A stretch of DNA of 64,000 nt from Lentimicrobium sp. GTDB lineage: Bacteria; Bacteroidota; Bacteroidia; Bacteroidales; Lentimicrobiaceae. The stretch lies in NCBI GenBank assembly GCA_023957275.1, contig JAMLHF010000010.1:17745-81744 (forward strand), given 5' to 3'. A model generated the notes under the pieces. It was not told where the DNA came from, did not search any database, and was given only the letters and a program-made list of their open reading frames with translations. Each line of letters opens with the position of its first letter. Position 1 is the first letter of the stretch. Below, one piece after another: positions 10,177-56,528 of the stretch. The position numbers and the translations under genes are program-made.

Positions 10177-10380
10177 TCAGCCTCCCGTAACCAGGTGTAA
10201 AACCATAACGTCATCCCCGTCCCTGACAATCGCCTTGTCAAATTCATGACGCCTGACAAGTTCGCCATTGATTTTCACGACAAGCATTTTAAAAGTGTAA
10301 TTCTTCAACGCGAGCAATTCCGTTATGGTCAACTGTTCCTTATCGAACGATTCAGACTTATTATTGAGATTGATTTTCAT
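10177..10380 (-). CDS. ThiS/MoaD-like sulfur carrier protein
   Basis: 67 residues from the ATG at 10380, which has an AAGGAA ribosome-binding site. A beta-grasp ubiquitin-like carrier ending VLHLVTGG; the terminal Gly-Gly is the site of adenylation and thiocarboxylation. The sequence KMLVVKINGELVRR ... DGDDVMVLHL is of ThiS type. Its partner, a ThiF-family activating enzyme, begins just upstream in the same operon with only ten bases between coding regions. No other thiamine gene is in the window, and the pair is divergent from an aldehyde:ferredoxin oxidoreductase, so a role as sulfur donor for the pterin dithiolene of a tungsten or molybdenum cofactor is plausible besides thiazole synthesis. 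Confidence 0.8.
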   Translation of the reverse strand: MKINLNNKSESFDKEQLTITELLALKNYTFKMLVVKINGELVRRHEFDKAIVRDGDDVMVLHLVTGG

Positions 10381-10390
10381 GATAATTTCC

Positions 10391-10999
10391 TTATTCGTCA
10401 ACCGGCTTAAATTCCTTCAGCAGGATATTCAGGACTTCGTTGGCCTGCATATGGGCAACAATACCCACCCTTGGCGCCAACACAGGCAATGAATCCGAAA
10501 CTTCAGAGGTTTCGTCCCCGCAGATAATCAGATTTTCAGAATATCTGCTATGCAACAGATTGGTACTACCCCACCCTGCCATACCAACCCCGACAACCAG
10601 CGGCTTACCGGGAATCCTGGAAAGAACGGTCTCAATGATCATATACTTCATCTCTGCTTTGTCAAAGGCTTCAACAATGACATCACATTTTGAATACAAA
10701 TCCACTATATCAGAAGTGCACAGTTTAAGATCAAAAGCCTTTACGGAAACATCGGGATTGATGCGCTGAATGTTTTCCCTCAGCGCATGTACTTTCAGCC
10801 GTCCGATCTGATCATGAAAATAATACTGCCGGTTCAGGTTATGATTCGTCACGATGTCATAGTCAGCAATAACAAGTTTGCCGACACCGGCACGCGCCAG
10901 TGCGACTGCGCAATTCGATCCCAGGCCGCCACAGCCTGCAATCCCAACTGTATACTTTTTCAGATATGCACTGATTTCAGCAGCTCTGGCAAACGACAT
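10391..10999 (-). CDS. ThiF/MoeB/HesA-family sulfur-carrier adenylyltransferase (ThiF family 2)
   Basis: 202 residues from the ATG at 10999 (MSFARAAEIS); the longer frame begins with TTG at 11032 and would sit inside the promoter. Rossmann ATP-binding site VGIAGCGGLGSN (about 18-29), then VIADYDIVTNHNLNRQYY, the E1-like D-N-R block, and an EAFDKAEMK segment. It lacks the long C-terminal part of full E1/MoeB proteins and has the roughly 200-residue length of the second ThiF family. It should adenylate the Gly-Gly end of the adjacent ThiS-like carrier. A TATTTTTG -7 element on the minus strand (11038-11045) lies 39 bases before the start. Confidence 0.82.
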   Translation of the reverse strand: MSFARAAEISAYLKKYTVGIAGCGGLGSNCAVALARAGVGKLVIADYDIVTNHNLNRQYYFHDQIGRLKVHALRENIQRINPDVSVKAFDLKLCTSDIVDLYSKCDVIVEAFDKAEMKYMIIETVLSRIPGKPLVVGVGMAGWGSTNLLHSRYSENLIICGDETSEVSDSLPVLAPRVGIVAHMQANEVLNILLKEFKPVDE

Positions 11000-11037
11000 A
11001 ACCGATCCATTTTCACTTATAACAGTTCCCAAAGATG

Positions 11038-11045
11038 CAAAAATA
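11038..11045 (-). promoter_or_regulatory. Bacteroidota -7 element for the thiF-thiS pair (TATTTTTG on the minus strand)
   Basis: The plus-strand CAAAAATA reads TATTTTTG on the minus strand, matching TAnnTTTG. It lies about 40 bases upstream of the chosen ATG at 10999 and supports that start over the TTG at 11032. No -33 box assigned. Confidence 0.45.
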
Positions 11046-11178
11046 GAAAAATAAGTCTTAGGACATCCCGGTGGTGAAATTCAATAAACGCGCTTTTGTT
11101 TAAACAGGTTTTTGTTTTCCTGTAAAACTCCCCGGATATGAAAACGCAGTCATATCGCTAATTTTCAGCGAATAAAGG

Positions 11179-11207
11179 TTGGGCATTTACAAAACTTTGT
11201 ACATTTG
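11179..11207 (+). promoter_or_regulatory. Promoter of the aldehyde:ferredoxin oxidoreductase gene (TTG-N18-TACATTTG)
   Basis: TTG at 11179-11181 and TACATTTG at 11200-11207 are separated by 18 bases, within the usual Bacteroidota -33/-7 spacing. The AOR ATG is at 11247, giving a leader of roughly 35 bases. It is the best two-part promoter seen in the window. Confidence 0.6.
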
Positions 11208-11246
11208 TGAACCGAATAACAGAAAACTCAAAATCAAAATATATCT

Positions 11247-13400
11247 ATGGACCTTACAGTTTTAAAAGACTCACTGCGATTGATTAAGGAGTACCGGTAT
11301 TCCTGGGCGCCTATTGAAAAAGGATACAATAACAGGACGGCTTATGTGAATGTAAGCACTCACGACATTCTTGAAAAGCCGGTTACTCCTCAGATGAAGG
11401 AAAAGTTTATCGGAGGTAAAGGATTTGGGCTCAGGCTGCTGTGGGATGCCACCACACCCACCACCCGGTGGAACGATCCCGACAATGAGATCGTAATCGG
11501 CATGGGGCCTATCTGCGGAATAACACAGTATTCCGGAACGGGAAAATCGCTGGTTGTTACCATTTCACCTCAAACCGACATTGTAATAGACAGCAATGTT
11601 GGCGGATATTTTGGTCCTTTTCTTAAATTCTGCGGTTTTGATGCTTTGGAACTTCAGGGAAAGAGCGAAAAGGATCTGGTTATCCTCTTTGATGAGACCC
11701 GTGAAGTAATTGAGATATACGAGCGACTTAACCTTCCTGCTGACAGTCATTTACTGGCAGAAAAACTCACAGAGTTGTTTGCAGAAGATGAGAGCGGCCG
11801 CAAGAATGTATCTGTGGTTTCGGCAGGAACAGCGGCAGAGCACTCCCTTATTGGCATGCTTAACTTCAGCTTCTTTGATTCAAAGCGGAAAGTTGTGAGG
11901 CTGAAACAAGCCGGCCGGGGCGGAATCGGCACTGTTTTCCGCGATAAAGGGATTCTTGCCCTTGTAGCAAAAGCCAAGGGGGTTAAAGGAAACCTTAATA
12001 ATGTGGTTGACCTGGATTCCATTATGGAACGCGGTCGCCGGTTTAACCGCGAAATGCGCGAACTTGATGACAAGCAGTGTGAAATGCGCTCAAAAGGAAC
12101 TGCGCACCTCACCAATATCATGAACGACTATGACCTGCTACCTACCAATAACTTCAAGTTCGGCAGCCATCCGGATGCAATAAAAATCCACTCCGAAGTA
12201 TACAAGGAAAGATTTACGCAGGGTGTTCCTGATGGCTGCTGGATTGGATGCAACATGTCATGCGCCAAGGGTGTGGATAATTACGAGCTGCGCTCGGGCC
12301 CGTACAAAGGATCCAAAGTGATTGTCGACGGACCGGAATATGAAACCGCATCTTCTCTCGGCTCCATTGCCGGTATTTTTAATCCTGACTTTACCATCGA
12401 GGGCAACTTTTATTGCGACACCTATGGCATTTGCACCATTTCCTGGGGAACCATCCTTGGATTTGTTATGGAGTGCTACGAAGCAGGGGTTCTCAACGAA
12501 GAGCGCACCGGCGGCCTTAAACTGAACTTCGGGAATGCCGATGATGCCATGGAATTGCTGCATCAGGTAGCCAGGGGTGAAGGCTTTGGCAAGATTGCCG
12601 GACTCGGGGTCAGAAAGATGAAGGAAATGTTCATTGCCAACGGATGGGGTGATCCCCGGTTCCTTCAGGACATTGGAATGGAAAACAAGGGACTGGAATA
12701 CTCACAGTATATTTCAAAAGAATCACTGGCTCAGCAGGGCGGATATGCCATGACCAATAAAGGCCCTCAACACGACGAAGCATGGCTTATTTTCATGGAT
12801 ATGGTTAATAATCAGATTCCAACATTTGAGAACAAAGCTGAGGCCCTGCACTACTTCCCCATGTTCAGAACCTGGTTTGGCCTGCAGGGGCTTTGCAAAT
12901 TACCCTGGAATGACGTGGAACCGGAAAGCAATGCACTCAGTGGTGAACCCGCAAAAGTTCCCGAGCATGTTGACAACTATGTGACCATTTACAACGCGGT
13001 AACCGGCAGCAACATCGACAAACATGAAATTATCCGTCAGTCGGAAAGGGTTTACAATTTCCAACGCATTTTTAACATCCGCCGCGGTTATGGCCTCAGG
13101 AAACATGATGCACAACCTTACCGGGCGGCCGGTCCTGTAACTGCCGAGGAATACCTGTCGCGACAGGAGCGTTATGACAAGCAGCTTTCAGAACTGCAGG
13201 GATTGGATCCTTCAAAAATGACACTGGAAGAAAAAATGGCCGCTACACGAAAGTATCGCGAAGACCGTTACGAGCAATTACTGGATGCCGTTTATTTCAG
13301 GAGAGGGTGGAACAGCAATGGCGTTCCGAAAATCGAACATTTGAAGAAGATCGGCATGGACCTTCCCGAACTGATCGAGGTGGTTGCTCCGCTGCAATAG
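11247..13400 (+). CDS. Aldehyde:ferredoxin oxidoreductase family tungsten-type enzyme
   Basis: 717 residues, slightly longer than typical family members because of about 35 extra N-terminal residues. N-terminal AOR domain: FIGGKGFGLRLLWD (about 52-65), GPICGITQYSGTGKS, then GGIGTVFRDKGILA and further pterin-binding segments. Cluster ligands appear as C331, C335 and C339 (GCWIGCNMSCAKG) plus a distal C550 (GLQGLCKLPW). The first spacing is C-x3-C-x3-C, not the C-x2-C-x3-C I know from Pyrococcus AOR. The family uses a bis-pterin tungsten cofactor and a 4Fe-4S cluster to couple aldehyde or acid chemistry to ferredoxin. Divergent thiF-thiS and the wtpA gene nearby fit cofactor supply. The substrate is unknown. 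Confidence 0.87.
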   Translation: MDLTVLKDSLRLIKEYRYSWAPIEKGYNNRTAYVNVSTHDILEKPVTPQMKEKFIGGKGFGLRLLWDATTPTTRWNDPDNEIVIGMGPICGITQYSGTGKSLVVTISPQTDIVIDSNVGGYFGPFLKFCGFDALELQGKSEKDLVILFDETREVIEIYERLNLPADSHLLAEKLTELFAEDESGRKNVSVVSAGTAAEHSLIGMLNFSFFDSKRKVVRLKQAGRGGIGTVFRDKGILALVAKAKGVKGNLNNVVDLDSIMERGRRFNREMRELDDKQCEMRSKGTAHLTNIMNDYDLLPTNNFKFGSHPDAIKIHSEVYKERFTQGVPDGCWIGCNMSCAKGVDNYELRSGPYKGSKVIVDGPEYETASSLGSIAGIFNPDFTIEGNFYCDTYGICTISWGTILGFVMECYEAGVLNEERTGGLKLNFGNADDAMELLHQVARGEGFGKIAGLGVRKMKEMFIANGWGDPRFLQDIGMENKGLEYSQYISKESLAQQGGYAMTNKGPQHDEAWLIFMDMVNNQIPTFENKAEALHYFPMFRTWFGLQGLCKLPWNDVEPESNALSGEPAKVPEHVDNYVTIYNAVTGSNIDKHEIIRQSERVYNFQRIFNIRRGYGLRKHDAQPYRAAGPVTAEEYLSRQERYDKQLSELQGLDPSKMTLEEKMAATRKYREDRYEQLLDAVYFRRGWNSNGVPKIEHLKKIGMDLPELIEVVAPLQ

Positions 13401-13421
13401 TTCTCTTAATCAATTAATGAT

Positions 13422-13463: not shown

Positions 13464-13524
13464 TCAACAGCACCAGCAGAAGCACCAGAAATCGGAAATC
13501 AAAAACACTCCGATACAACAACGC

Positions 13525-14841: not shown

Positions 14842-16482
14842 TCAGTGACAACGGTCTTCCTTCATAAACGGATAACGAAAATCGGTAGGAGGCAGCAGGG
14901 TTTCTTTGATTGTTCTGGGGCTCGTCCAGCGGATGAGGTTAAGGTGGCTGCCGGCTTTGTCGTTTGTACCTGACTGCCGGGAACCCCCGAAAGGCTGTTG
15001 ACCCACCACGGCGCCTGTTGGTTTATCATTGAAATAAAGGTTCCCGGCTGAATACTTCAACGCTTTGCTGGCCTTATCAAGTACCTGACGGTCATGCGCA
15101 AAGATTGCCCCGGTCAGTCCATAAGGTGAAGTCTCATCCACCAGTTTCAGCATTTCGTTAAAATCCTTATCTTCATAAACATAGATTGTAAGCACAGGGC
15201 CGAAAATTTCTTCTTCCATGGTAATAAAATGGGGATCTTTCGTCAGAATAACGGTTGGTTCAATAAAATAGCCTTTCGACTTGTCCCCGTTACCTCCGAA
15301 TATCACCTCGGCATCCGGCGATTGCTTTGCCTTTGAGATATAATTCATGATATTATCGAACGATGCCTCGTCAATCACTGCATTCATGAAATTGCTGAAT
15401 TCACGCACATCACCAACGGTTACCTCCGAGAGCATCTCCCCTACCCTGTTGCGTACTAAAGGCCAGAGCGATGCAGGCAGATAAGCCCTGGAAGCAGCTG
15501 AGCACTTCTGTCCCTGATACTCAAAAGCTCCGCGGACAATTGCTGTAGAAACTTCATCCACGTGCGCCGATTCATGAACAACAATGAAATCCTTACCTCC
15601 TGTTTCGCCCACAATTTTAGGGTATGATTTGTAATTCCTCAGATTCTGGGCAACATTCATCCACAGGCGGTTAAAGGTTACGTTGGACCCGGTGAAATGC
15701 AATCCGGCAAAATTCCGGTCTGTAAATATTGCATTGCCGACCACCGATCCGGCTCCAGGAATAAAATTTATCACCCCCTCAGGCAGTCCGGCTTCACGGA
15801 ATATCTGCATCAGCACGTAGTTTGACAGAATTGAAGTGGAAGCGGGTTTCCAAAGGACTGTATTGCCCATCAACACGGGCGACATATTGAGATTGGATGC
15901 TATTGCGGTAAAATTGAACGGAGTAAGCGAAAAGATGAATCCCTCAAGCGGACGGTATTCAATTCTGTTGATAAAGCCAGGATCCGAATGAGGCTGTTCA
16001 TGGTAAATGTCAGAAATGTAATGCGCATTGAACCTGAGAAAATCAATGGTTTCGCAGGCGCTGTCGATTTCAGCCTGATATGCGTTCTTACTTTGGCCAA
16101 GCATGGTGGCAGCGTTGAGGGTTGCCCTGTATTTCTTAGAGATAAGTTCAGCTATCCTGAGGGTAACGGAAACGCGCTCCACATAAGAAAATGACTCCCA
16201 CTGCCTGTGGGCCTTCAGGGCTGCATGAATGGCCATCTTAACCTCCTCAGGACCGGCCTTGTGATAATTTGCCAGGATATGCCCGTGATCGTGCGGCATC
16301 ACTACCGGTTCAGTATCCCCGGTTCTGACCTCTTTTCCGCCAATGATCAGCGGGATATCCACCGTTTCGGAAGACATCCTGTCAAGTTCCTTCTGCAGAT
16401 TACGACGCTCCGGAGTCCCTGGTGAATAAGACTTTACCGGTTCATTTTCAGGGTAATCAAAAACAAATATGGCATTATTCAT
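14842..16482 (-). CDS. pruA: L-glutamate gamma-semialdehyde (1-pyrroline-5-carboxylate) dehydrogenase
   Basis: 546 residues from the ATG at 16482 (MNNAIFVFDYPENEPV); a TTG-started frame reaching 16539 adds 19 unlikely residues. Aldehyde dehydrogenase fold with FSLTPFNFTAIASNL, FTGSNVTFNRL, the general base region VGETGGKDFIVVHESAHVD, catalytic Cys in YQGQKCSAASRAYLP, and EEEIFGPVLTIYVYED. The group 1 P5C dehydrogenase pattern (HxxPxxDPGFINR-like segment, C-terminal FGGSRQSGTNDKAG and SPRTIKE) identifies PruA. It oxidises glutamate semialdehyde to glutamate with NAD in proline and ornithine catabolism. Divergent from the SDR gene with 94 bases between starts. Confidence 0.92.
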   Translation of the reverse strand: MNNAIFVFDYPENEPVKSYSPGTPERRNLQKELDRMSSETVDIPLIIGGKEVRTGDTEPVVMPHDHGHILANYHKAGPEEVKMAIHAALKAHRQWESFSYVERVSVTLRIAELISKKYRATLNAATMLGQSKNAYQAEIDSACETIDFLRFNAHYISDIYHEQPHSDPGFINRIEYRPLEGFIFSLTPFNFTAIASNLNMSPVLMGNTVLWKPASTSILSNYVLMQIFREAGLPEGVINFIPGAGSVVGNAIFTDRNFAGLHFTGSNVTFNRLWMNVAQNLRNYKSYPKIVGETGGKDFIVVHESAHVDEVSTAIVRGAFEYQGQKCSAASRAYLPASLWPLVRNRVGEMLSEVTVGDVREFSNFMNAVIDEASFDNIMNYISKAKQSPDAEVIFGGNGDKSKGYFIEPTVILTKDPHFITMEEEIFGPVLTIYVYEDKDFNEMLKLVDETSPYGLTGAIFAHDRQVLDKASKALKYSAGNLYFNDKPTGAVVGQQPFGGSRQSGTNDKAGSHLNLIRWTSPRTIKETLLPPTDFRYPFMKEDRCH

Positions 16483-16576
16483 ATTAAAAATCTTAAAAGG
16501 TGTAATTTTAACCGACGAAATAACAGCGGCTAAGTTCAAATGTTCATCACCTGCCGCAACTAAAAATTGTTACGGT

Positions 16577-17401: not shown

Positions 17402-17683
17402 ATGTTCAAAACCAATGATTACTTCGACGGAAAAGTAAAATCGATCGCCTTTGAAACCATTGAAGGTCCGGCAACTGTGGGCGTTATGGCAGCCGGTGAA
17501 TATGAGTTCGGCACTTCTTCTGTCGAATACATGACTGTTATTTCAGGAGAAATGGATGTGAAACTTCCGGGGGAATCCGGGTGGAAAACATTTTTGCCTT
17601 TTGAAACATTCATTGTTCCGGCAAATGTAAAATTCGGGGTACGGATGAAAGGTGACACCGCTTACCGTTGTTTATACCGATAG
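17402..17683 (+). CDS. ppnP: Pyrimidine/purine nucleoside phosphorylase PpnP
   Basis: 93 residues, the full length of the PpnP (formerly DUF1255) cupin-like family. Visible signatures are [29 protein letters not shown], a [12 protein letters not shown] strand pair and the [15 protein letters not shown] block. The family phosphorolyses several purine and pyrimidine nucleosides. It is followed by a hairpin and then the ModE-like gene; no functional link to the tungsten genes is evident. Confidence 0.9.
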
Positions 17684-17754: not shown

Positions 17755-18129
17755 ATGAAAGCAAGTAAGTACGAAGAGCTTCGTTTGCATTACAAAATAT
17801 GGTTCACGGACAAGGATGATAACGGCATTCTCGGCGATGGTAAATATAAAATACTTAAAGCCATTGATGAAACCGGATCCTTGATGTCAGCATGCGAAAA
17901 GCTGGGCATTACTTACCGGCGGACATGGAATGATCTCAAAAGCATTGAAAAGCGGCTGGGATTTCCATTGCTGGAGAAGACCAGGGGAGGAACAGATGGC
18001 GGAAGCAGTACCCTGACTCCCGAAGGCAGGAAACTTATAAGGGCATTTGATAATTTCCATGAGAATATGGACGAAATCATGCAGCATCATTTTAAAGTAC
18101 TCAAGCACCAGCTTCTTTCAGATGAATAA
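17755..18129 (+). CDS. ModE-like winged-helix regulator lacking a molybdate-binding domain
   Basis: 124 residues comprising only the ModE N-terminal winged helix: ILKAIDETGSLMSACEKLGITYRRTWNDLKSIEKRLGFPLLEKTRGG, then SSTLTPEGRKLIRAFDNFH, which are the family's characteristic blocks. The two MOP domains that bind molybdate or tungstate in E. coli ModE are absent, so oxyanion sensing would need a partner or another mechanism. The gene ends inside the first codons of wtpA (8-base overlap), so it is almost certainly co-expressed with, and may regulate, tungstate uptake. Confidence 0.82.
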   Translation: MKASKYEELRLHYKIWFTDKDDNGILGDGKYKILKAIDETGSLMSACEKLGITYRRTWNDLKSIEKRLGFPLLEKTRGGTDGGSSTLTPEGRKLIRAFDNFHENMDEIMQHHFKVLKHQLLSDE

Positions 18130-19096
18130 AAGTGGAATGGTATACTTTACAGCCTGGCTTCTGCTTTCGGCGATTTTCATAAGTTCATGCCGGAACAATC
18201 AGTCAGAGAAGCAGTCAACAGACTTATCAGGTGAACTGACGATATTTCATGCTGGCAGCCTTTCGGTTCCGTTTAAAGCACTTGCCGATTCATTCTGCAG
18301 GATTCACCCTGAAGTCAGCATACTCACCGAGTCTGCCGGCAGCCTCGCTTCAATAAGGAAAATCACCGACCTGAATAAGCCTTGCGATATAATGGCATCA
18401 GCGGATTACACCCTTATAGATAAATTATTGATCCCGGATTACGCAAGCTGGAACCTGCTGTTTGCCGGCAATGAAATGTCCATTGTTTACCATTCAGATT
18501 CCAGGCTGGCTGATTCATTATCTGCGGATAACTGGTATAAAATACTAATGAACCCCGAAGTAAGGTTCGGGCGCTCAGATCCCGATTCAGATCCCTGTGG
18601 CTACAGGGCCATCCTTACCATGAAACTGACAGAAAAATTCCTCGATCAGCCCGGTATGACGGAGAACTTTCTTCAGAAAGACAATAAATTCATCAGGCCA
18701 AAAGAAGTTGACCTTCTGGCATTACTTGAATCAGGATCAATAGATTATATATTTCTTTATAAATCAGTTGCCATACAACATAAGCTAAAATATCTGGAAT
18801 TATCCGACAGCATTAACCTCGCTTCACCCGGCCTCCACGATCTGTATCAGACTGTTTCAGTGGAAATAGCAGGCAATAAACCAGGGGACAAAATCACTCA
18901 GCATGGTGAAGCCATGGTTTATGGCCTCACCATCCTTAACAACAGCAAAAACAAAGCGCTTGCCGAAGCTTTTATCAGTTTTATACTGAAAGATGGCTTA
19001 CAGATTATAGAAAATCTCGGGCAAACCCGTGTAATTCCCAGACTATCTGAAAAATCGCAAGCTCCGGCATTTCTTCATGAATATCTTGTCCCCTGA
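18122..19096 (+). CDS. wtpA: Tungstate/molybdate ABC transporter substrate-binding lipoprotein (WtpA-like)
   Basis: 324 residues from the ATG at 18122, overlapping the ModE-like gene by 8 bases; the frame reaching back to 18047 lies wholly inside that gene. A lipoprotein signal peptide ends at ISSC with Cys23. The mature part starts ELTIFHAGSLSVPFKAL, then ESAGSLASIRKI, DIMASADYTLID, FGRSDPDSDPCGYR, all typical of the WtpA branch of molybdate/tungstate binding proteins. No permease or ATPase gene follows; these (wtpB, wtpC) lie 35 kb downstream at 54.1-55.9 kb. Confidence 0.88.
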   Translation: MNKSGMVYFTAWLLLSAIFISSCRNNQSEKQSTDLSGELTIFHAGSLSVPFKALADSFCRIHPEVSILTESAGSLASIRKITDLNKPCDIMASADYTLIDKLLIPDYASWNLLFAGNEMSIVYHSDSRLADSLSADNWYKILMNPEVRFGRSDPDSDPCGYRAILTMKLTEKFLDQPGMTENFLQKDNKFIRPKEVDLLALLESGSIDYIFLYKSVAIQHKLKYLELSDSINLASPGLHDLYQTVSVEIAGNKPGDKITQHGEAMVYGLTILNNSKNKALAEAFISFILKDGLQIIENLGQTRVIPRLSEKSQAPAFLHEYLVP

Positions 19097-19188
19097 TTTA
19101 TAGCTAGTTAAGATTTCATTTTACAAGGTTTCTGGTGGCGGAAGAACAAACTCCATCAATTGTTGTTTGTTGCATAAAAACCAATAAC

Positions 19189-47347: not shown

Positions 47348-48215
47348 CGGATTTAAACGAGTCCCCGGCTATGGGCGATCAGGTGTTCAGCATCAATGAA
47401 AACGTTCCCGCAGGAACCGTTGCAGGCACCATGAATGCCACGGACCCCGATCAGGGACAAACCCTGACTTACAGCATACGGCCGGAAACACCGGTGGCGC
47501 ATTCGCCATCAGCCCTTCAACCGGGGTATTACGGTAAACAACCCGGCAGCGGTAAACTTTGAAGTCAATCCGGTTTTCAGCCTGACCATAATGGCTCAGG
47601 ATAACGGCGCACCTACTCTTTCGTCAATGCAATGGCAACCATCAACCTGACGGATATAAACGAGTCCCCGGCTATGGGCGATCAGGTGTTCAGCATCAAT
47701 GAAAACGTTCCCGCAGGAACCGTTGCAGGCACCATGAAGTGCCACGGACCCCGATCAGGGACAAACCCTGACTTACAGCATCACGGCCGGAAACACCGGC
47801 GGCGCATTCGCCATCCAGCCCTTCAACCGGGGTAATTACGGTAAACAACCCGGCAGCGGTAAACTTTGAAGTCAATCCGGTCTTCATCCTGACCATCATG
47901 GCTCAGGATAACGGCGCACCAGCTCTTTCCGTCAATGCAATGGCAACCATCAACCTGACGGATATAAACGAGTCCCCGGCTATGGGCGATCAGGTGTTCA
48001 GCATCAATGAAAACGTTCCCACCGGAACCTTTGCAGGCTCCATGAATGCCACGGACCCCGATCGAAAGAACGGACAAACCCTGACTTACAGCATCACGGC
48101 CGGAAACACCGGTGGCGCTTTTGCCATCAGCCCTTCAACCGGGGTAATTACGGTAAACAACCCGGCAGCGGTAAACTTTTTGAAGTCAATCCGGTCTTCA
48201 TCCTGACCATCTGTG
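46741..48215 (+). repeat. Five near-identical 306-bp cadherin-unit repeats carrying a cluster of indels
   Basis: The marker ACC(G/T)TTGCAG recurs at 46805, 47111, 47416, 47719 and 48027: spacings of 306, 305, 303 and 308. Comparing copies shows single-base losses near 47291, 47476, 47527 and 47621, single-base gains near 47739 and 47815, an in-frame 6-base gain near 48063, two extra T near 48178 and one extra base near 48211. The net change is +1 (mod 3), exactly the shift between the frames of the upstream and downstream parts. Two short frames (47329-47562, 47632-47835) and one at 47898-48206 are fragments of this region, not genes. Confidence 0.85.
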
Positions 48216-51200
48216 GCCACCGACAACGGAACTCCCGGTTTGTCAGACGAGGAAACGGTTGTTATTCTCCTGAATGATGTGAACGAAGCGCCCGTGATTG
48301 AAGACCAGAGTTTTGGCGTATCCAGAACCGCACCGGCAGGAACCCTGATCGGAACGGTGGTGGCTGCTGACCCCGACTTTAATCAAACGCTGACATTTGC
48401 TGTTACCGACGGCGATCCTGACAATATTTTCAGCATTGACCCTCTGAGCGGCGAGCTATCCGTCAGCAACAGCGGTGCACTTATGGCTTCGGCCAATGAG
48501 ATGTTTACCCTGAACATCCTGGCTGAGGATAACGGAAATCCCGTACTCTCAGCATCTGCAATCGCTACCATCATGGTTACTGAAAGCAACCTGCCGCCTG
48601 CCATCGAAAATCAGCTCTTCGCCATTGACGAAAATGCAGCTTCAGGCTCGTTGGTCGGCCAGGTGATCGCCACAGATCCGGATCAGAACCAGACACTTTC
48701 GTTTAGCATTACCGCAGGAAATCCTGAAAACGCATTCCAAATCTCTGAAAGCGGCCTGATATCTGTCGTCAATGCGGGCCTTATGGATTTTGAGACATAT
48801 CCTGTATTTAATCTCACCATTCAGGTAACGGACAACGGCTCCCCCGCCCTGTCGGCTTCGGCAACAATTACCATTGAACTCAACGATATCAATGAAACCC
48901 CGGTGATCGACCCGGGCCAGGCATTCCTGGTTGATGAGCATGTTCCCGCCCTGACCCAGGTAGGAACGGTATCAGCCGCCGACCCCGACTCAGGACAATC
49001 GCTCACCTATACCATTCAGGGCGGAAATACCAACAACGCCTTTGCCATCGACGCACTTACAGGTGAAATTACCGTGGCCGGAAATATCTGCTTTGAAAAC
49101 TGCAGCCAGTACAACCTGCTGGTGAGGGCCGCCGACAACGGAACTCCCGGTTTGTCAGACGAGGAAACGGTTGTTATTCTTTTGAATGATGTGAACGAAA
49201 CCCCGGTGATCGACCCGGGCCAGGCATTCCAGGTTGATGAGCATGTTCCCGCCCTGACCCAGGTAGGAACGGTATCAGCCGCCGATCCCGACTCAGGTCA
49301 ATCACTCACCTATACCATTCAGGGCGGAAATACCAACAACGCCTTTGCCATCGACGCCCTTACAGGTGAAATTACCGTGGCCGGAAATATCTGCTTTGAA
49401 AACTGCAGCCAGTACAACCTGCTGGTGAGGGCCACCGACAACGGAACTCCCGGTTTGTCAGACGAGGAAACGGTTGTTATTCTTCTGAATGATGTGAACG
49501 AAACCCCGGTGATCGACCCGGGCCAGGCATTCCAGGTTGATGAACATGTTCCCGCCCTGACCCAGGTCGGAACGGTATCAGCCGCCGACCCTGACTCAGG
49601 TCAATCGCTCACCTATACCATTCAGGGCGGAAATACCAACAACGCCTTTGCCATCGACGCACTTACAGGTGAAATTACCGTGGCCGGAAATATCTGCTTT
49701 GAAAACTGCAGCCAGTACAACCTGCTGGTGAGGGCCACCGACAACGGAACTCCCGGTTTGTCAGATGAGGAAACGGTTGTTATTCTCCTGAATGATGTGA
49801 ACGAAGCGCCCGTGATTGAAGACCAGAGTTTTGGCGTATCCAGAACCGCACCGGCAGGAACCCTGATCGGAACGGTGGTGGCTGCTGACCCCGACTTTAA
49901 TCAAACGCTGACGTTTGCTGTTACCGACGGCGATCCTGACAATATTTTCAGCATTGACCCCCTGAGCGGCGAGTTGTTTATTGTAAGCACAAATACCCTT
50001 GGAATAATTTTAGAGGAATTTATATATCTGAGTGTTACAGTCACCGACAATGGCAGCCCGGAAGAAGCGTCAGATGCAATCATTACCATTGTAATGGATG
50101 CTATGAATAACAATCCAGTAATTCTGGATCAGGGATTTTCAACAGATGAAAATGCAGCAGTCGGAACGGAAGTAGGACAAATAGCCGCTTTCGACCCTGA
50201 TGAAGACCAGGAATTGACTTTTAGCATAGCAGATGGAAATACCGGTGAAGCATTTTCACTATCTCAGGAAGGGACACTGACTGTTTTGAATTCCGAAATG
50301 CTTAACTATGAGACGGCACCAATCTTCCAGCTTGTAGTTATTGTAACCGACAATGGCATTCCGGCTATGGCTTCACAGGCGCTGATAACCATCAGCCTGA
50401 ATGATATCAGCGAACCTCCTGTTGTTTACCCTCAAAGTTTCACTATTGAAGAAAATTTATCAAACGGTCAGTTTGTTGGCGAGATTGAAGCTTATGATCC
50501 TGACTCTGGAAACAACCTGCAATTCGAAATTATTTCAGGGAATACGGATAATGCTTTCCGGATTCATCCAATCAATGGTCAGCTGTTTGTCAGAAACAGC
50601 GCGGCCATTAATTTTGAGGAAAACCCGGTATTTTCCCTGTTGGTAAGGGTGAGTGACAGTGACAATCTGGCAACAGAAGAAACTATAACCATAATTGTAG
50701 CAGACAGCAATGAGCCTCCCGAAACTTACAATTTCAGCTTCTATGCTGAATATTCATCGCCAGAAGGCACTTTGGTTGGCGTCATAGAGGCAACTGATCC
50801 TGATCAGGGGCAGCTACTTTCGTACGAGTTCTTAGATGGCAATGCCGATAATATCTTCAACCTGCATCCTTTCACGGGAGAGATATCTATCAATAACTCA
50901 AATGCCCTCAGGATCAGCAATGTGGGTCAATACAACATGGTTGTCAAGGTTTCCGATAACGGCACACCTTCACTGTCAGCAATCTGTTATGTTAAAATTG
51001 CCATAACGATGCCCGAAACCGAAAAGAATATTGCATCGGACAATAGCACAACGCTCAAACGCCTGGATTTCAAGGCATATCCAAACCCATCAATTGATGG
51101 AAAATTTACCCTGGCGTTTACATCAGAGCCATCTCCGGATGCAACAATTTCAATAACAGATATCTCCGGAATTGTGATGTATGAAATAAATCCGAACAGA

Positions 51201-51305
51201 ATGCTGAACTATCCCCTGGACCTCAGCCATCTTAACAAAGGATTCTATGTAATACAAATAACCAACGGTCAGTACCGTACCAAGGATAAACTGATTATTC
51301 AATAA
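48213..51305 (+). CDS. Second giant T9SS surface protein, 3' part (cadherin repeats and sorting domain)
   Basis: 1030 codons; no true start here (GTG at 48213 is only the first usable codon after the indel cluster). About nine cadherin-like units follow, three of them near-identical tandem copies (period 303 bp, 48905/49208/49511). Each of these has PVIDPGQAF, SAADPDSGQSLTYTIQGGN, TGEITVAGNICFENCSQYNLLVRA and DNGTPGLSDEE. The C-terminal T9SS domain is FKAYPNPSIDGKFTLAFTSE ... LNKGFYVIQITNGQYRTKD. It is the continuation of the gene starting at 43733. Confidence 0.78.
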   Translation: MATDNGTPGLSDEETVVILLNDVNEAPVIEDQSFGVSRTAPAGTLIGTVVAADPDFNQTLTFAVTDGDPDNIFSIDPLSGELSVSNSGALMASANEMFTLNILAEDNGNPVLSASAIATIMVTESNLPPAIENQLFAIDENAASGSLVGQVIATDPDQNQTLSFSITAGNPENAFQISESGLISVVNAGLMDFETYPVFNLTIQVTDNGSPALSASATITIELNDINETPVIDPGQAFLVDEHVPALTQVGTVSAADPDSGQSLTYTIQGGNTNNAFAIDALTGEITVAGNICFENCSQYNLLVRAADNGTPGLSDEETVVILLNDVNETPVIDPGQAFQVDEHVPALTQVGTVSAADPDSGQSLTYTIQGGNTNNAFAIDALTGEITVAGNICFENCSQYNLLVRATDNGTPGLSDEETVVILLNDVNETPVIDPGQAFQVDEHVPALTQVGTVSAADPDSGQSLTYTIQGGNTNNAFAIDALTGEITVAGNICFENCSQYNLLVRATDNGTPGLSDEETVVILLNDVNEAPVIEDQSFGVSRTAPAGTLIGTVVAADPDFNQTLTFAVTDGDPDNIFSIDPLSGELFIVSTNTLGIILEEFIYLSVTVTDNGSPEEASDAIITIVMDAMNNNPVILDQGFSTDENAAVGTEVGQIAAFDPDEDQELTFSIADGNTGEAFSLSQEGTLTVLNSEMLNYETAPIFQLVVIVTDNGIPAMASQALITISLNDISEPPVVYPQSFTIEENLSNGQFVGEIEAYDPDSGNNLQFEIISGNTDNAFRIHPINGQLFVRNSAAINFEENPVFSLLVRVSDSDNLATEETITIIVADSNEPPETYNFSFYAEYSSPEGTLVGVIEATDPDQGQLLSYEFLDGNADNIFNLHPFTGEISINNSNALRISNVGQYNMVVKVSDNGTPSLSAICYVKIAITMPETEKNIASDNSTTLKRLDFKAYPNPSIDGKFTLAFTSEPSPDATISITDISGIVMYEINPNRMLNYPLDLSHLNKGFYVIQITNGQYRTKDKLIIQ
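48890..49800 (+). repeat. Three tandem 303-bp repeats inside the giant gene
   Basis: GATCGACCCGGGCCAGGCAT recurs at 48905, 49208 and 49511 (period 303 bp, 101 codons). The copies differ by only a few bases each. A separate segment around 48280-48450 is also repeated almost exactly at 49800-49970. Both patterns point to recent in-gene duplication or gene conversion. Confidence 0.88.
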
Positions 51306-51326
51306 AATTGCCTGAATCAATCGGGT

Positions 51327-51358
51327 ATGGGCTGGCGCGGGGCCAGCCCATTTTTTTT
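51327..51358. terminator. Strong terminator between convergent genes
   Basis: ATGGGCTGGC (51327-51336) pairs exactly with GCCAGCCCAT (51342-51351), followed by eight T (51351-51358). It ends transcription of the giant gene and overlaps the 3' end of fcl. Confidence 0.9.
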
Positions 51359-52475
51359 AAACTGAGGTATAATAACTATAAACTGCCGCAATCCCGTCCC
51401 TAAGCGTCATTCCGGCTTCCCATCCCAATGAATGAAGTCTTGAAACATCAAGCAGTTTCCGCGGAGTTCCGTCAGGTTTGCTTGAATCAAATACTATTTC
51501 ACCCTTAAAACCCACAACCTCTTTAACCAGAGAAGCCAGATCCCTGATGGAAATTTCTTTCCCGCTACCGATGTTAATGTGGGTGTTTCTGATCTCTTTA
51601 TCATCATAGCTTCCCGAGCCGCCTCCGAGATCGGAAAAACTATGGTTTTCCATCACAAATACACAGGCATCAGCCATATCCTCTACCCAGAGAAACTCCC
51701 GTAGAGGCCGGCCGGTGCCCCATAACGATAATCTGACATGCCGGCTTCCGTTCTGTATGATCTCAGATATACCGAAACGGCCAAGGTATTCCACCAGCGT
51801 CTGTTCTCCGGTATCGTTGCTGATTCCTTCCGCATTATTTCTGATCAGATCATTTCTGATTTCAAGAAAATCACTCTTTTCAAAACATTTTCCAAGATGG
51901 ATTTTTCTCAGCAGTGCAGGGAGTACATGCGAGGTTTCCAGGTTAAAATTATCATTATAGCCATACAGATTGGTCGGCATTACTGAAATAAAATCAGTTC
52001 CATACTGCAGATTATACGATTCGCACATCTTCATGCCTGCAATCTTGGCGATGGCATAGGGTTCATTGGTATACTCCAGTTCACCGGTAAGCAGGCAATC
52101 TTCCGACATAGGCTGAGGCGCATTTTTGGGATAGACACAACTGCTGCCCAGAAACAACAATTTCTTCACGCCGTTGAGATATGCCTGATGAATTATATTA
52201 TTCTGAATCTGAAGGTTTTCATAAATAAACTGCGCCCTGTATTTATTATTGGCCATAATACCTCCGACTTTGGCGGCGGCCAGAAAAACAAATTCAGGTT
52301 TTTCATACTCAAAAAACGCAGTAACTTTTGACTGGTCTGTCAGGTCTAATTCCTCAAAAGTTCTGGTGATTAAATTGACATATCCTTTTCGCTGAAGATT
52401 ATTCATGATGGCGCTGCCTACCAAACCCCGGTGCCCGGCGATGTAAATCCTGCTGTCCTTATTCATTATGGCCAT
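51357..52475 (-). CDS. fcl: GDP-L-fucose synthase
   Basis: 372 residues, somewhat longer than the usual roughly 320 because of inserted segments near 200-235 and 280-300. NAD(P) loop [28 protein letters not shown]; the catalytic Ser/Tyr/Lys block [11 protein letters not shown] ... [34 protein letters not shown]. It converts GDP-4-keto-6-deoxymannose to GDP-L-fucose. Runs in an operon with gmd, 22 bases downstream of it. Confidence 0.93.
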
Positions 52476-52497
52476 TGTTTATCTCTTTTATTAAGGT

Positions 52498-53616
52498 TTA
52501 TTCAAAATAGCTTAAAATATCGTACCCTCCATCTCTCAGGTACCGGTCTTTTTTCATCAGTTTGATATCTCCTTCCATCATATCTTTAACCAATCCTTTC
52601 AGGTCATATTCCGGAATCCAGCCCAGCTTTTCCCTGGCTTTTGCCGGATCTCCCAACAACAGGTCTACTTCAGTCGGCCTGAAATACATAGGATCCACAG
52701 CAAGCACCTCTTTACCGGCCGGCAACTGATATTCCGGATTACTGCAACCGGCAACATACGCCTTTTCATCCACTCCTGATCCTTTAAATTCTATGGAAAT
52801 ACCTACCTCACCAAAGGCCAGTCTGACAAATTCCCTCACCTCAGTAGTAATCCCGGTAGCTATTACAAAATCTTCCGGTTTCTCCTGCTGAAGAATCAGG
52901 TACATTGCCCTGACATAATCCTTTGCATGTCCCCAATCGCGTTTAGCCGAAAGATTTCCCAGGAACAATTTATCCTGCATACCCAGGGCGATCCTTGAGA
53001 CGGCCATTGTGATCTTCCTGGTAACGAATGTTTCACCGCGAATAGGCGATTCATGGTTGAACAATATGCCGTTAGCAGCAAAAAGTCCGTAAGCTTCACG
53101 ATAGTTCACCGTGATCCAGTAGGCGTACATCTTTGCAACTGCGTAAGGACTCCGGGGATAGAAAGGGGTTTTTTCTGACTGCGGAATCTGTTGCACCAAT
53201 CCATAGAGTTCGCTGGTTGATGCCTGGTAAATCCTTGTTTTCCCGACAAGGTTAAGCAACCTTACCGCTTCAAGTATCCTTAAAGTACCGATTCCATCTG
53301 CATTCGCCGTATATTCCGGGGAGTCGAAACTCACCTTGACATGCGACATGGCAGCAAGATTATATATTTCGTCGGGTTGAACCTCCTGGATGATCCTGAT
53401 AAGATTTGATGAATCAGTCATATCTCCGTAGTGGAGAATAAAATGACGGTTTTCTATATGCGGATCCTGATACAGGTGATCTATCCTGTTGGTATTGAAT
53501 AAGGAACTGCGTCGTTTGATCCCGTGAACAATATACCCTTTGCGCAAAAGGAATTCGGCAAGATAGGCGCCATCCTGACCTGTGACACCGGTAATCAGGG
53601 CTACTTTTTGTGACAT
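52498..53616 (-). CDS. gmd: GDP-mannose 4,6-dehydratase
   Basis: 372 residues. NADP loop [59 protein letters not shown] with the catalytic Thr/Ser-Glu; Tyr-x3-Lys in [40 protein letters not shown]. First enzyme of GDP-L-fucose synthesis, feeding fcl. The pair supplies a fucose donor to the glycosyltransferases of the locus and closes the polysaccharide cluster on the opposite strand. Confidence 0.95.
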
Positions 53617-53659
53617 AAAGCTTAATTTAGTGTTCTGTTATCGCTGTTATCCGGTTAAA

Positions 53660-53880
53660 TTATGAGATTACCTTCGGTGAACTCTCCGCCACTGGCGGTT
53701 CGGTTCCTTGCTAACGCTGAGAATGACTTTGACTAACATGGGTTTGAGGAAAAGGGGGCTTGGTGGCGGCTATTCAGCCACCAAGCCCCCTTTGATTATC
53801 GTCAATATATTGTCATTCTGAACGTAACGTTGTGAAGTGAAGAACCGACCAATATGAGCTCACCGAAGGTAATCTCATAA
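53660..53880. repeat. 221-bp MITE-like palindromic element with 21-bp perfect ends
   Basis: The 21-base sequences at 53660-53680 (starting TTATGAGATTACC) and 53860-53880 are exact reverse complements. In the centre, 53751-53767 and 53777-53793 form a perfect 17-bp stem (AAAGGGGGCTTGGTGGC) with a 9-base loop. The right inner arm contains GTCATTCTGAACG ... GTGAAG, similar to short dispersed repeats common in bacterial genomes, and AGAATGAC is matched on the left arm. No ORF lies within. It is in the gap between gmd and wtpB, and could be a non-autonomous mobile element or a REP-type element; its central hairpin may also stop transcription. Confidence 0.8.
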
Positions 53881-54048
53881 CTCCTTCCAAAGATTTACCG
53901 GACAATAATGGTTCTCTAATACAAAATTAACAAAAAACGACCATACTAAACCCGTTGCACAATAATCTTGTTCAAGCAAAGCTCCTGCCGCCGAAAAGGG
54001 CATTTGGCATGGTCTTTTGAATCAGAGACCCAACAGATAATTTTATAT

Positions 54049-54056
54049 TACCTTTG
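54049..54056 (+). promoter_or_regulatory. Bacteroidota -7 element for wtpB (TACCTTTG)
   Basis: TACCTTTG matches TAnnTTTG and lies 37 bases before the wtpB ATG. A TTTTG at 54015-54019 is too distant to be the -33 box. No ModE-type operator palindrome was recognised around it. Confidence 0.5.
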
Positions 54057-54093
54057 CGATCAGAATGTTTAAACATATCGGTTTTCCGAAACA

Positions 54094-54879
54094 ATGAAAC
54101 ATCGCATCTTTCATCTGTTGCTGACCCTGAGTGGTGCAATCATTCTGTTGTTCATCATTGCTCCGTTGGCCGGAATCTTTTTGAAAAGTGAAGGCAGTGA
54201 ATTACTGGCTGCAGGCAGGGACAGCCAGGTCACTGACAGCATCTGGCTGACCATTGGCACCTCAATGGCAGCAACAGTCATTTTTGCGTTTTTATCGCTG
54301 CCTTTTGCATGGTTGTTGGCCAGGCGCCGGTTTAAAATGAAGAAACTAGTACTGGGCATTATTGACCTTCCGGTAGTTATCCCGCACACAGCCGCCGGCA
54401 TTGCTCTTCTTGGCGTAATATCCCGCGATTCATTCATTGGCCGGATGGCAGAGGAAGCCGGCATTGATTTTATAGGCCATCCATTCGGAATTACACTGGC
54501 AATGGCTTTTGTCAGTCTTCCCTTTTTTATCAATGCAGCCAGGGAAGGTTTTGTCAGCGTTCCCGACCGTCTTGAAAAAGCTGCACTTAATCTCGGGGCT
54601 TCCCCTCTCAGGGTATTTCTCACCATATCCATCCCGCTGGCAATGCGCCAGATCATCTCCGGTTCAGTGATGATGTTTGCAAGGGGAATGAGCGAATTCG
54701 GCGCGGTAGTAGTCATTGCCTATCACCCGATGACGGCTCCGGTGCTTATCTATGAAAGATTCAGTTCCTTCGGATTGCAGTATGCACGACCGGTTTCAGT
54801 AATATTTATCATAATCTCCGTATTGTTATTTCTCCTTATGAGACTATTGGCCAGAGATCCTGAAAATGCTAGAAATTAA
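54094..54879 (+). CDS. wtpB: Tungstate/molybdate ABC transporter permease
   Basis: 261 residues with six transmembrane helices and the binding-protein-dependent permease motif EKAALNLGASPLRVFLTISIPLAMRQI (EAA-x3-G loop, about 168-194), which contacts the ATPase. PVVIPHTAAGIALLG and ARGMSEFGAVVVIAYHPMTAPVLIYE are typical of ModB/WtpB. Overlaps wtpC by 14 bases. The binding protein gene is absent here; wtpA is 35 kb upstream. Confidence 0.85.
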   Translation: MKHRIFHLLLTLSGAIILLFIIAPLAGIFLKSEGSELLAAGRDSQVTDSIWLTIGTSMAATVIFAFLSLPFAWLLARRRFKMKKLVLGIIDLPVVIPHTAAGIALLGVISRDSFIGRMAEEAGIDFIGHPFGITLAMAFVSLPFFINAAREGFVSVPDRLEKAALNLGASPLRVFLTISIPLAMRQIISGSVMMFARGMSEFGAVVVIAYHPMTAPVLIYERFSSFGLQYARPVSVIFIIISVLLFLLMRLLARDPENARN

Positions 54880-55915
54880 ACACTTACATAAATACTTTGA
54901 CCGGTTCCAAATTGTTGACATCAACCTGAAAATCAACAGGGAGGATTATTTTGTGCTCCTCGGAGCCTCCGGAGCAGGGAAATCGGTCTTACTGGAGCTG
55001 ATAGCCGGCATTACCCGGCCTGACAAAGGCAGTGTTTTTATGAACGGAAATGAAATCACTTTTTTACCGGTGGAAAAGCGCAAAACAGGACTGATTTTTC
55101 AGACGCCGGCGATTTTTCCACATCTTACGGTGAAAGAAAATATAGCCTACCCCCTGTTTGCAGCAGCCCGACAGATGGTCGATTCCAGGGTCAGATCCCT
55201 GGCCGGCCAGACCGGCATTTCACATCTGCTGAATGAAAAACCGGCCAAACTCTCCGGAGGTGAGCTGCAGCGGCTTGCGCTGGCCCGTACACTTGCATCG
55301 GATCCATTGATGCTGCTGCTGGATGAACCCCTCTCTGCAGTTGACACACCCATGAAATCCTCACTCAGGGGACTGCTGCGCGAACTGAACCGCGAAGGAA
55401 TGCCGGTGCTGCATGTAACGCATGACTTTGAGGAAGCGCTTGCCCTGGCCAATAAAATGGCAGTTATTGAGAACGGCCGCATCATACAAACCGGAACTCC
55501 ATCGGAGATCATCAATCAGCCAAAAAGCGGTTTTGCAGCCGGATTTACAGGAGAACACAACTTTTTCAAAGCTGAAATCAGGGGGCTTTCCGCAACTGTG
55601 AAAGCGGGTAGTAGCAAAAAGGAACAATTCATCATTCACCTCAGTGAGCATTACGACGAAGGCACTGCCAACATCCTGATCCGCAGCAATCACGTGATTG
55701 TTGCAAAAGACAGGGCCGAAATGAGTACCACAAACAACTTCTTGGGAACAATCACCGCAATCAGCCCTTTAAGGGAAGGATTTGAAATATGCATTGAAAA
55801 CGGATACCGGTTTTATGCCCGGATCACAAGGGACTCTCTCGGAAAACTGAATCTGGCACCCGGGCAGGAAGTATGGGCTTGCTTCAAAGCATCGGCGGTG
55901 GAAGTAATCCGTTAA
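54866..55915 (+). CDS. wtpC: Tungstate/molybdate ABC transporter ATP-binding protein
   Basis: 349 residues. Walker A GASGAGKSV (about 33-41), Q-loop LIFQTPAIFPHLTV, signature LSGGELQRLALARTLAS, Walker B LLLLDEPLSAVD and H-loop HVTHDFEEA. The C-terminal part from about 235 (GEHNFFKAEI ... ICIENGYRFYARIT ... VWACFKASAVEVI) is a MOP/TOBE regulatory domain as in ModC/WtpC. Reads on from wtpB and would energise uptake with WtpA. The specificity for tungstate over molybdate is inferred from WtpA type and the AOR gene. Confidence 0.87.
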   Translation: MLEIKHLHKYFDRFQIVDINLKINREDYFVLLGASGAGKSVLLELIAGITRPDKGSVFMNGNEITFLPVEKRKTGLIFQTPAIFPHLTVKENIAYPLFAAARQMVDSRVRSLAGQTGISHLLNEKPAKLSGGELQRLALARTLASDPLMLLLDEPLSAVDTPMKSSLRGLLRELNREGMPVLHVTHDFEEALALANKMAVIENGRIIQTGTPSEIINQPKSGFAAGFTGEHNFFKAEIRGLSATVKAGSSKKEQFIIHLSEHYDEGTANILIRSNHVIVAKDRAEMSTTNNFLGTITAISPLREGFEICIENGYRFYARITRDSLGKLNLAPGQEVWACFKASAVEVIR

Positions 55916-55967
55916 TTATGCTGCTATTTTATTCTTCTCCTGATCTGAAAACAACCCCGACCTTATC

Positions 55968-56528
55968 ATGATCTCATTGCCTAACCTGATCATTATCGGA
56001 GGATCGTCGCGAAATGTAGGAAAAACATCCATATGCCTTGACCTGATTTCAAGGTATGCGTCAAAACTGGACATTACCGGCCTGAAAATTTCCGCCATTA
56101 AGCCGGAAGAGAAAATTTACCACGGAACCCATGGGCATGTGTTTAAGGGCAGAAATTTCAGGATCTATGAAGAGCCGAAACCTGATGACCATAAAGATAC
56201 GGCCAGAATGCTGAAAGCCGGTGCAAAAAGAGCCGTTTACATCGAAGCAGCCGACGAGCACCTGGCAGAAGCATTTGCCGGATTCAGGAATTTATACGGA
56301 ACAACCGGTCCGATTATCAGTGAATCAAGAAGCTTGAGAAAACTGGCAATTCCCTCACTCTTCATCCTGATAAAGCATTTTGAGGCGGCCCTGATAAAAC
56401 AGGATTTTTATAAATACGAAGCCCTTGCAGACCTAACTGTAAACATCAAACCCGGCTGCAACACCTCTGCTTCCGTTGCTTCACGGATATTCTGGGATCA
56501 GGATCATTGGGCGCTTTCAGCGGACTAA
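55968..56528 (+). CDS. P-loop protein related to MobB/BioD, possibly for pterin cofactor metabolism
   Basis: 186 residues. The nucleotide-binding loop GGSSRNVGKTSICLDLI (about 11-27) has the G-x5-GKT spacing seen in BioD/CobB/MobB-type P-loops. ISAIKPEEKIYHGTHGHV resembles the KxxH region following the P-loop in MobB, and GTTGPIISESRSLRKL the later ExxR element. It is separated from wtpC by 52 bases on the same strand and ends 11 bases from a convergent gene. A role in molybdenum or tungsten cofactor maturation fits the location but is not proven by sequence. Confidence 0.45.
   Translation: MISLPNLIIIGGSSRNVGKTSICLDLISRYASKLDITGLKISAIKPEEKIYHGTHGHVFKGRNFRIYEEPKPDDHKDTARMLKAGAKRAVYIEAADEHLAEAFAGFRNLYGTTGPIISESRSLRKLAIPSLFILIKHFEAALIKQDFYKYEALADLTVNIKPGCNTSASVASRIFWDQDHWALSAD

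Follow-up and report, generated by a model that had tools for sequence, protein, structure and literature searches.

Introduction

Polysaccharide loci, for example those for O-antigen or capsule, are exchanged between fixed flanking genes. The locus described here shares the mosaic exchange and the fixed flanks of such loci, but it is flanked by two halves of what was once a single transporter operon, and its content looks mostly vertically inherited. It lies in a 64,000-nt stretch of DNA from Lentimicrobium sp. (GenBank assembly GCA_023957275.1, contig JAMLHF010000010.1, positions 17,745 to 81,744; G000:C2:17745-81744 in our numbering), hereafter the window, in which the genes of a WtpABC-type tungstate/molybdate transporter stand on either side of an exopolysaccharide (glycan) locus. 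As in other WtpABC transporters, which are reported in 172 of 3683 molybdenum-using bacteria (PMC6147048), genes for all three subunits are predicted and WtpA is of the archaeal type; here, however, the genes are 35 kb apart, and wtpBC stands behind a promoter-like element of its own.

Two further systems are close to this one. Escherichia coli ModE is described in PMC11980592 as a repressor of modABCD and an activator of moa. The candidate regulon presented below has the same 24-bp operator architecture, with the box placed as for a repressor at uptake genes and as for an activator at an enzyme gene, but its regulator lacks a TOBE domain, its predicted targets include an aldehyde:ferredoxin oxidoreductase (AOR) and a P5C dehydrogenase (P5CDH), and its genes are dispersed. 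According to PMC1779556, MoaD/MoeB-like genes adjoin AOR; the window likewise has a ThiS/MoaD-like and ThiF-like pair beside its AOR gene, although here the pair is divergent from AOR and near modE and wtpA. Our literature searches returned nothing that joined wtpA, Bacteroidales and tungstate, or tungsten, Bacteroidales and AOR, and their listings held no description of such a tungsten-responsive regulon in these bacteria.

The split of the tungstate-uptake operon around a polysaccharide locus is real and genus-wide. What makes it most interesting is the candidate ModE-type regulon. Our favoured explanation, to which we give a probability of about 0.75, is that a WtpABC-type uptake system serving AOR was split before the genus radiated by the glycan locus together with fcl/gmd and a dehydrogenase gene (P6CDH), and that in some of the genomes its halves would still form one regulon.

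Genes of a WtpABC-type transporter are split across the genus

The source genome (G000) is a draft metagenome assembly of 4.4 Mb in 145 contigs, and annotation was based on NCBIfam and Pfam profiles and on PDB sequence matches. The wtpA gene (18047–19096, plus strand) encodes a tungstate/molybdate-binding protein that passes the TIGR03730 cut-off (302.9 bits against 242.75) and whose top-scoring PDB sequence, 2onk_E, is a molybdate/tungstate-binding protein of archaeal origin; the open reading frame (ORF) overlaps modE, and the real wtpA start is probably further in. The permease gene wtpB (54094–54879) and the ATPase gene wtpC (54866–55915, with a TOBE domain), both on the plus strand, have tungstate_WtpB and tungstate_WtpC as their best NCBIfam families. 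Both wtpA (18.0–19.1 kb) and wtpBC (54.1–55.9 kb) are single-copy and separated by 35 kb. Because a genome search of G000 at E ≤ 0.001 gave a single match to wtpA and a single match to wtpB, and no second match to either, the second complete wtpABC operon that a preliminary description of the window had named as a possible counter-finding is absent.

Upstream of wtpA lie the AOR gene (11247–13400, plus strand; Pfam AFOR_N and AFOR_C; PDB 1aor and 8c0z), a P5CDH gene (14842–16539, minus strand; TIGR01236, 773.8 bits, cut-off 613.6), a ppnP-like gene (17402–17683, plus strand; Pfam Ppnp) and modE (17755–18129, plus strand), whose product is a ModE-like DNA-binding protein. We infer tungsten as the metal from the AOR family, which we take to carry a tungsten cofactor, and from the neighbouring WtpA. 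Between wtpA and wtpB stand the gene for L-piperidine-6-carboxylate dehydrogenase (P6CDH; 19135–20751, plus strand; NF050084, 779.7 bits, cut-off 730), the exopolysaccharide locus (20908–51305, plus strand) and two genes on the minus strand: an fcl-like NAD-dependent epimerase gene (51357–52475; Pfam Epimerase), named fcl from its pairing with gmd, and gmd itself (52498–53616; GDP-mannose 4,6-dehydratase), the sole match in the genome at E ≤ 1e-100. The NCBIfam, Pfam and PDB checks bear out the preliminary picture of tungsten genes in two places with a glycan locus between them; as an account of everything between wtpA and wtpB that picture was incomplete, since P6CDH and fcl/gmd (51357–53616) are there as well.

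We compared 19 genomes of the genus (G000–G018, uncultured Bacteroidales). In six, a single contig holds wtpA, the glycan locus and wtpB in that order, the two wtp genes being 35.0 kb apart in G000, 41.0 kb in G001, 27.5 kb in G003, 49.5 kb in G010, 43.7 kb in G012 and 44.4 kb in G013. Three (G014, G016 and G018) have an empty site, with the order wtpA-P6CDH-fcl-gmd-wtpBC and a wtpA–wtpB distance of 4.2–4.4 kb. In five more the two genes are on separate contigs; both sides of the junction are as in G000 in G005, G008 and G017, only the right side is in G009, and G015 is left unresolved. The rearranged G006 has wtpA inverted directly after wtpC, G004 (an assembly 72% complete) has AOR and wtpA without wtpB, and G002, G007 and G011 have neither wtpA nor wtpB. 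Each of the four genus clades has members in which wtpA is separated from wtpBC.

Outside the genus the wtpABC genes are normally adjacent, as the preliminary description had stated. From the 80 wtp loci kept out of 89 we removed 11 assigned to the genus (L061–L071), which left 69 non-genus loci, 53 of them with both genes; wtpA stands directly before wtpB in 47 of the 53 (median gap 7 nt), one gene lies between the two in three, and wtpA is inverted downstream of wtpC in the other three. The remaining 16 have no wtpA in the stretch available, which extends more than 3 kb upstream in 10 of them. In four non-genus loci (L124, L125, L129 and L136), a flank of P5CDH, ppnP, modE and wtpA continues straight into wtpBC, and fcl/gmd adjoins wtpB in none of the non-genus neighbourhoods listed.

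Several individual arrangements depart from these patterns. In the non-genus loci L073, L075 and L099, wtpA and wtpB are parted by a gene of about 418 amino acids (aa). In G006 (C57, L165) the block from wtpA and modE to AOR is inverted directly after wtpC, and wtpA is inverted likewise in non-genus L131, L138 and L139. In G003 no AOR adjoins the P5CDH-wtpA block, the AOR gene (C8:35910–38051) being on a different contig.

Tungsten genes seem to be lost as a set

Genome searches with AOR, wtpA and wtpB gave no match to any of the three in G002, G007 and G011, and the corresponding sites are closed. At the AOR site, thiF is followed by P5CDH without AOR in G007 (L347) and G011 (L348), two relatives that retain ThiF. 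At the ppnP-modE-wtpA site, SDR adjoins P6CDH in G007 (L347) and G002 (L349), and at the wtpB-wtpC-mobB site gmd adjoins LRR in G011, G007 and G002 (L343, L344 and L345). All three gaps are visible in G007, and two of the three in each of G011 and G002, whose contigs end. Glycan genes persist in G007 and G002 (in G002, the sugar transferase at 69% and a wzc fragment at 60%). All of the remaining 16 genomes have AOR and wtpA, the latter as fragments in G015 and as two frames in G017; 15 have wtpB, with an open frame in every case. The tungsten genes seem to have been lost as a set from separate places, and there is good comparative evidence that the separated transporter parts are still one unit.

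A ModE-type box at the separated genes

The regions upstream of AOR and modE have in common a 24-bp palindrome, CGWTATGAA-N6-TTCATAWCG. We built a matrix from 15 training sites (10 AOR, 5 modE) and ran it over 731 kb of genus sequence, contig fragments included; with thresholds (12 and 13.3 bits) that were picked after the score list was seen, 26 hits reach at least 13.3 bits, of which 12 lie at AOR, five at modE, six at wtpB, two at a second P5CDH gene beside wtpA and one within a gene. Ten of the 11 non-training hits at this threshold are at wtpB (six), the second P5CDH (two) or AOR (two). Counted by genus genomes with the region scanned, the box is present at AOR in 12/12, at modE in 5/14 and at wtpB in 6/14; AOR itself occurs in 16 genomes, four of which (G003, G008, G015 and G016) have it outside the scanned stretches, and G015 is excluded from the count of wtpB promoters because its contig starts within wtpB. 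Applied to 2.5 kb of the E. coli K-12 modE–modA region, the matrix has the modA operator as its top hit (15.9 bits; next 1.9).

In the window, the AOR box (11134–11157; 28.7 bits) is a training site, and the wtpB box (54057–54080; 14.4 bits) is not. The latter directly follows an element on the plus strand (54049–54056) with the sequence TAnnTTTG, which we take to be the Bacteroidota promoter element. TAnnTTTG precedes wtpB in 14/14 genus genomes with sequence there, compared with 1/47 contiguous non-genus loci, and that one locus (L123) is also the sole non-genus case of a box before wtpB. The element is 35–45 nt before the wtpB start in 13/14 genomes, with G005 counted from a downstream in-frame ATG because its annotated start codon precedes its box. 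The wtpB box is carried by G000, G001, G005, G006, G013 and G018, which amounts to two changes on the tree; eight genus genomes have the promoter-like element without it.

The position of the box relative to TAnnTTTG differs between genes. At AOR, TAnnTTTG starts 65–66 nt after the box start in 12/12 (66 nt in the window), three of which have another at 40. At wtpB it starts 8 nt before the box in 6/6, and at genus P5CDH genes 12–13 nt before it in 5/7; none was found at the five genus modE boxes. Outside the genus, the four AOR boxes precede TAnnTTTG by 44–58 nt, 4/5 wtpA boxes overlap the element, and 6/8 modE boxes either overlap it or lie next to it. Judged from position alone, this is the arrangement expected if the regulator activated AOR and repressed both the uptake genes and the metal-free P5CDH.

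Second copies of P5CDH carry the box in 7/8 genus cases (the exception is G014), as against 0/15 first copies, which include the one in the window; this count covers G000–G015, four non-genus copies (scores −2.2, 14.1, 9.6 and −1.3) were dropped from it, and one first copy (G011) has only ~80 nt upstream. Among non-genus genes with upstream sequence, boxes of at least 12 bits occur at 8/9 P5CDH genes and at 1/68 wtpB genes. The second P5CDH, with a strong box, is directly after wtpA and before P6CDH in G013 (L145) and G010 (L149); it is located elsewhere, with the box kept, in G000 (C102), G005, G006, G012 and G003. A box-like site is also common to G000 (C144:1425–1448), G001 and G005; in G001, where its surroundings were inspected, a lipoprotein-like gene begins at the site.

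We propose that the WtpABC-type system, whose transport of tungstate/molybdate is predicted from its genes, serves the AOR, and that wtpBC, once detached from wtpA by the exopolysaccharide locus with fcl/gmd and P6CDH before the genus radiated, would be transcribed from its own promoter. In the six genomes with a ModE-type box at wtpB, G000 among them, that box would cover the likely start site, so that the metal-loaded ModE-like protein encoded beside wtpA may repress uptake and switch on AOR. The halves would then be one regulon in the box-bearing genomes, though no longer one operon.

More tentatively, and at somewhat under even odds, several Bacteroidales lineages may have a ModE-type metal-economy switch: with tungsten present, uptake and the NAD-dependent P5CDH would be off and AOR on (in the genus and some others), and with tungsten gone the NAD enzyme would take over. 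The split transporter would stay within this switch where wtpBC gained its own promoter and box. In favour of such a switch are the contrast between second and first P5CDH copies, the frequency of the box at outgroup P5CDH genes in wtp loci, and the positions of the outgroup AOR, wtpA and modE boxes relative to TAnnTTTG. TAnnTTTG is off its expected place at 5/8 outgroup and 2/7 genus P5CDH boxes, which weighs against the switch, and the presence of the box at just 4/29 outgroup AOR genes lowered our odds for it.

Order of events

RpoB, left-flank and right-flank trees recover the same main clades, some of which are weakly supported internally. With G015 (place unresolved) and the rearranged G006 both scored as having the glycan locus, and G011 uncoded in one count and absent in the other, the distribution of the locus can be explained by two changes on either the RpoB or the right-flank tree, or by three with outgroups coded as lacking it. 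By these counts alone, one gain plus two losses is not separable from three or four gains. We place the locus at the genus root because all four clades have the same genes in one order and at one place. Insertion between wtpA and wtpB before the genus radiated, followed by losses, is the best reading.

The trees suggest that the empty sites of G014, G016 and G018 are derived losses. Three glycan marker genes (27797, wzc and the sugar transferase) have no orthologue in these genomes: 27797 has no match, the wzc match is a 44–45% paralogue that is also found elsewhere in G000, and the sugar transferase reaches at most 43%. On these three marker genes, relocation of the locus elsewhere in G014, G016 and G018 is rejected. 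In each of the three, the gmd at this site is the genome's only match at E ≤ 1e-100, which may explain why fcl/gmd was retained.

The preliminary description had proposed entry of the glycan locus between wtpA and wtpB, or else a rearrangement that separated them, and had expected relatives lacking the glycan genes to show the two side by side. Contiguous outgroups, in which the same left flank runs into wtpBC, agree with such a separation, with the correction that other genus members share the split. The expectation did not hold, as G014, G016 and G018 keep P6CDH, fcl and gmd between the two genes. Relatives that lack a glycan locus and still have wtpA and wtpBC apart, as these do, had been named as a finding that would speak against insertion, but since the trees suggest derived losses, the story is altered rather than refuted.

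Exchange between lineages has probably also shaped the locus. The glycan gene tree matches the flank trees except at G012/G004/G007, a conflict that points to such exchange. A block from ~13.5 (13450) to 35.9 kb, which includes wtpA and most glycan genes, is ~99.5% identical between G000 and G001, apart from a patch at 32.1–33.0 kb of ~85%; 500-base pieces outside the block range from 73% to 99.8%. This mosaic block indicates that exchange can carry wtpA along. In both the wtpA and the wtpB tree the genus is one clade in a broadly similar neighbourhood, with differing sister outgroups, a comparison that is not decisive.

Weighing the explanations

Several observations count against the favoured explanation. 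WtpB (272 bits) and WtpC (312 bits) are both below their family cut-offs of 340 and 440, so that tungsten rather than molybdenum is unproven. The ModE-like protein, at 124 aa, scores 71 bits against TIGR00637 (E = 6.7e-20), below the cut-off of 98.5, and has PDB sequence matches to 2ijl and ModE 1b9m; it consists of HTH_1 only, without a C-terminal TOBE domain, which leaves metal sensing unexplained. No box is present at 8/14 wtpB promoters (G003, G008, G009, G010, G012, G014, G016 and G017) or at 9/14 modE upstream regions, that of G000 included, and outside the genus it is found, at 12 bits or more, at only 4/29 AOR, 8/18 modE and 5/51 wtpA genes. A test of upstream regions gave only p = 0.023, with uncleaned controls that include thiF and gmd on the same intergenic DNA. 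Fisher p-values, where calculated, treat related genomes as independent. A loose form of the box pattern (one mismatch) is about as frequent genome-wide as a reversed control, and a genome-wide hunt for further boxes with it was uninformative. Contiguous loci, with their median gap of 7 nt, could hardly accommodate a promoter, and the contrast in TAnnTTTG between genus and outgroups is therefore partly expected. The wtpA gene of G017 (C56, L166) is broken into two frames, the cause being either a mutation or an error in sequencing. Finally, G011 lacks all three glycan markers while a cadherin-like fragment is still beside fcl; this may be a further loss or a loss in common with G016, beside which G011 is placed on the RpoB tree with a support of only 11.

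Among the alternatives, we consider a two-step history improbable but the strongest: P6CDH and fcl/gmd would have cut the operon first, and the glycan locus would have entered the gap later, perhaps several times, as at a hot spot. The genomes with only P6CDH and fcl/gmd between wtpA and wtpB have just this form; the tree conflict at G012/G004/G007 and the nearly identical G000/G001 block indicate that content was probably exchanged, and by count three or four gains do hardly worse than one gain with two losses. Descent is nevertheless a better fit to the presence of the same genes in the same order, with mostly concordant trees, in all four clades. Slightly less probable still is the reverse order, in which the glycan locus and fcl/gmd were already in place when the tungsten genes arrived around them in three pieces. 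The closed chromosomes of G002, G007 and G011 would be its ancestral state, and the genus has slightly different neighbours in the wtpA and wtpB trees (L100; L073/L075/L077/L099). However, G007 and G011 nest within the genus on the RpoB tree (two changes; G002 has no RpoB match) and look derived, outgroups have the P5CDH-ppnP-modE-wtpA order running straight into wtpBC, and the genus is a single clade for both genes.

It is quite unlikely that the separated genes are uncoupled, with wtpBC a relic or serving another substrate. The sub-threshold scores of WtpB and WtpC, the place of wtpC among the less conserved proteins (83% to G001) and the broken wtpA of G017 would agree with this, but wtpB is open in all 15 carriers, wtpB, wtpA and AOR occur together in 15 genomes and are all absent in three (G004 being unresolved), and six genomes share the ModE-type box. 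An assembly or binning artefact, a concern for a draft metagenome of 145 contigs, is very nearly discounted by recurrence of the arrangement in five other genomes, among them G001, an assembly of two contigs.

Neighbouring genes and the right-junction repeat

The glycan locus is of the Wzx/polyprenyl-glycosylphosphotransferase/Wza/Wzc type, with Wzx, the initiating sugar transferase, Wza and Wzc all identified alongside FkbM, glycosyltransferase and PGA_cap genes. No Wzy family match was found among the glycan-locus genes scanned, and the gene at 23406–24668 has no Pfam or NCBIfam match at all. Three large cadherin-repeat proteins are also encoded, and a type IX sorting tail is present on two of these. 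At 43733–51305, two cadherin-repeat ORFs (1204 and 1030 aa) correspond to a single ORF of 4613 aa in G001, reflecting either collapse of a repeat in the assembly or a true deletion. The glycan loci of G013, G010, G012 and G017 (L146, L150, L154 and L166) contain opposite-strand genes without homologues in the window, many of 300–600 aa.

The sulfur-carrier pair of the preliminary description is real and on the minus strand: a ThiS/MoaD-like ORF (10177–10401; Pfam ThiS, 3.9e-10) whose product ends in VTGG, and a ThiF/MoeB-like adenylyltransferase gene (10391–11032; NF006395, 249.7 bits, cut-off 159). Plus-strand ORFs at 10440–11077 were rejected as this pair, having no family match. The gene after wtpC (55968–56528, plus strand), described as MobB/BioD-like, encodes a protein with a P-loop-like GGSSRNVGKTS near its N-terminus, read by eye; the MobB assignment is weak, with a Pfam match at E = 0.018, below the cut-off.

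The right junction holds a 274-bp repeat element (53637–53910) with inverted arms of 25 nt and, by eye, TTCT on either side. The palindrome had been taken as a possible mark of the operon split, a role we reject, as the element is at this site in G000 only. Alignment with G001 shows no counterpart at the matching place, the gmd–wtpB spacer is 477 bp in G000 as against at most 231 bp in 13 other genus genomes, and many further copies or fragments occur in G000 (of 28 match rows in total, some are the palindrome matching itself). For these reasons we regard it as a later insertion than the split.

Significance

These genomes amount to a natural experiment on operon cohesion, in which the same transporter is contiguous, split by 30–50 kb, split by 4 kb, or missing from separate places. 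What keeps such a unit together may be co-regulation rather than co-transcription, an answer that the ModE-type box makes testable; the box also provides a short list of candidate tungsten-responsive genes.

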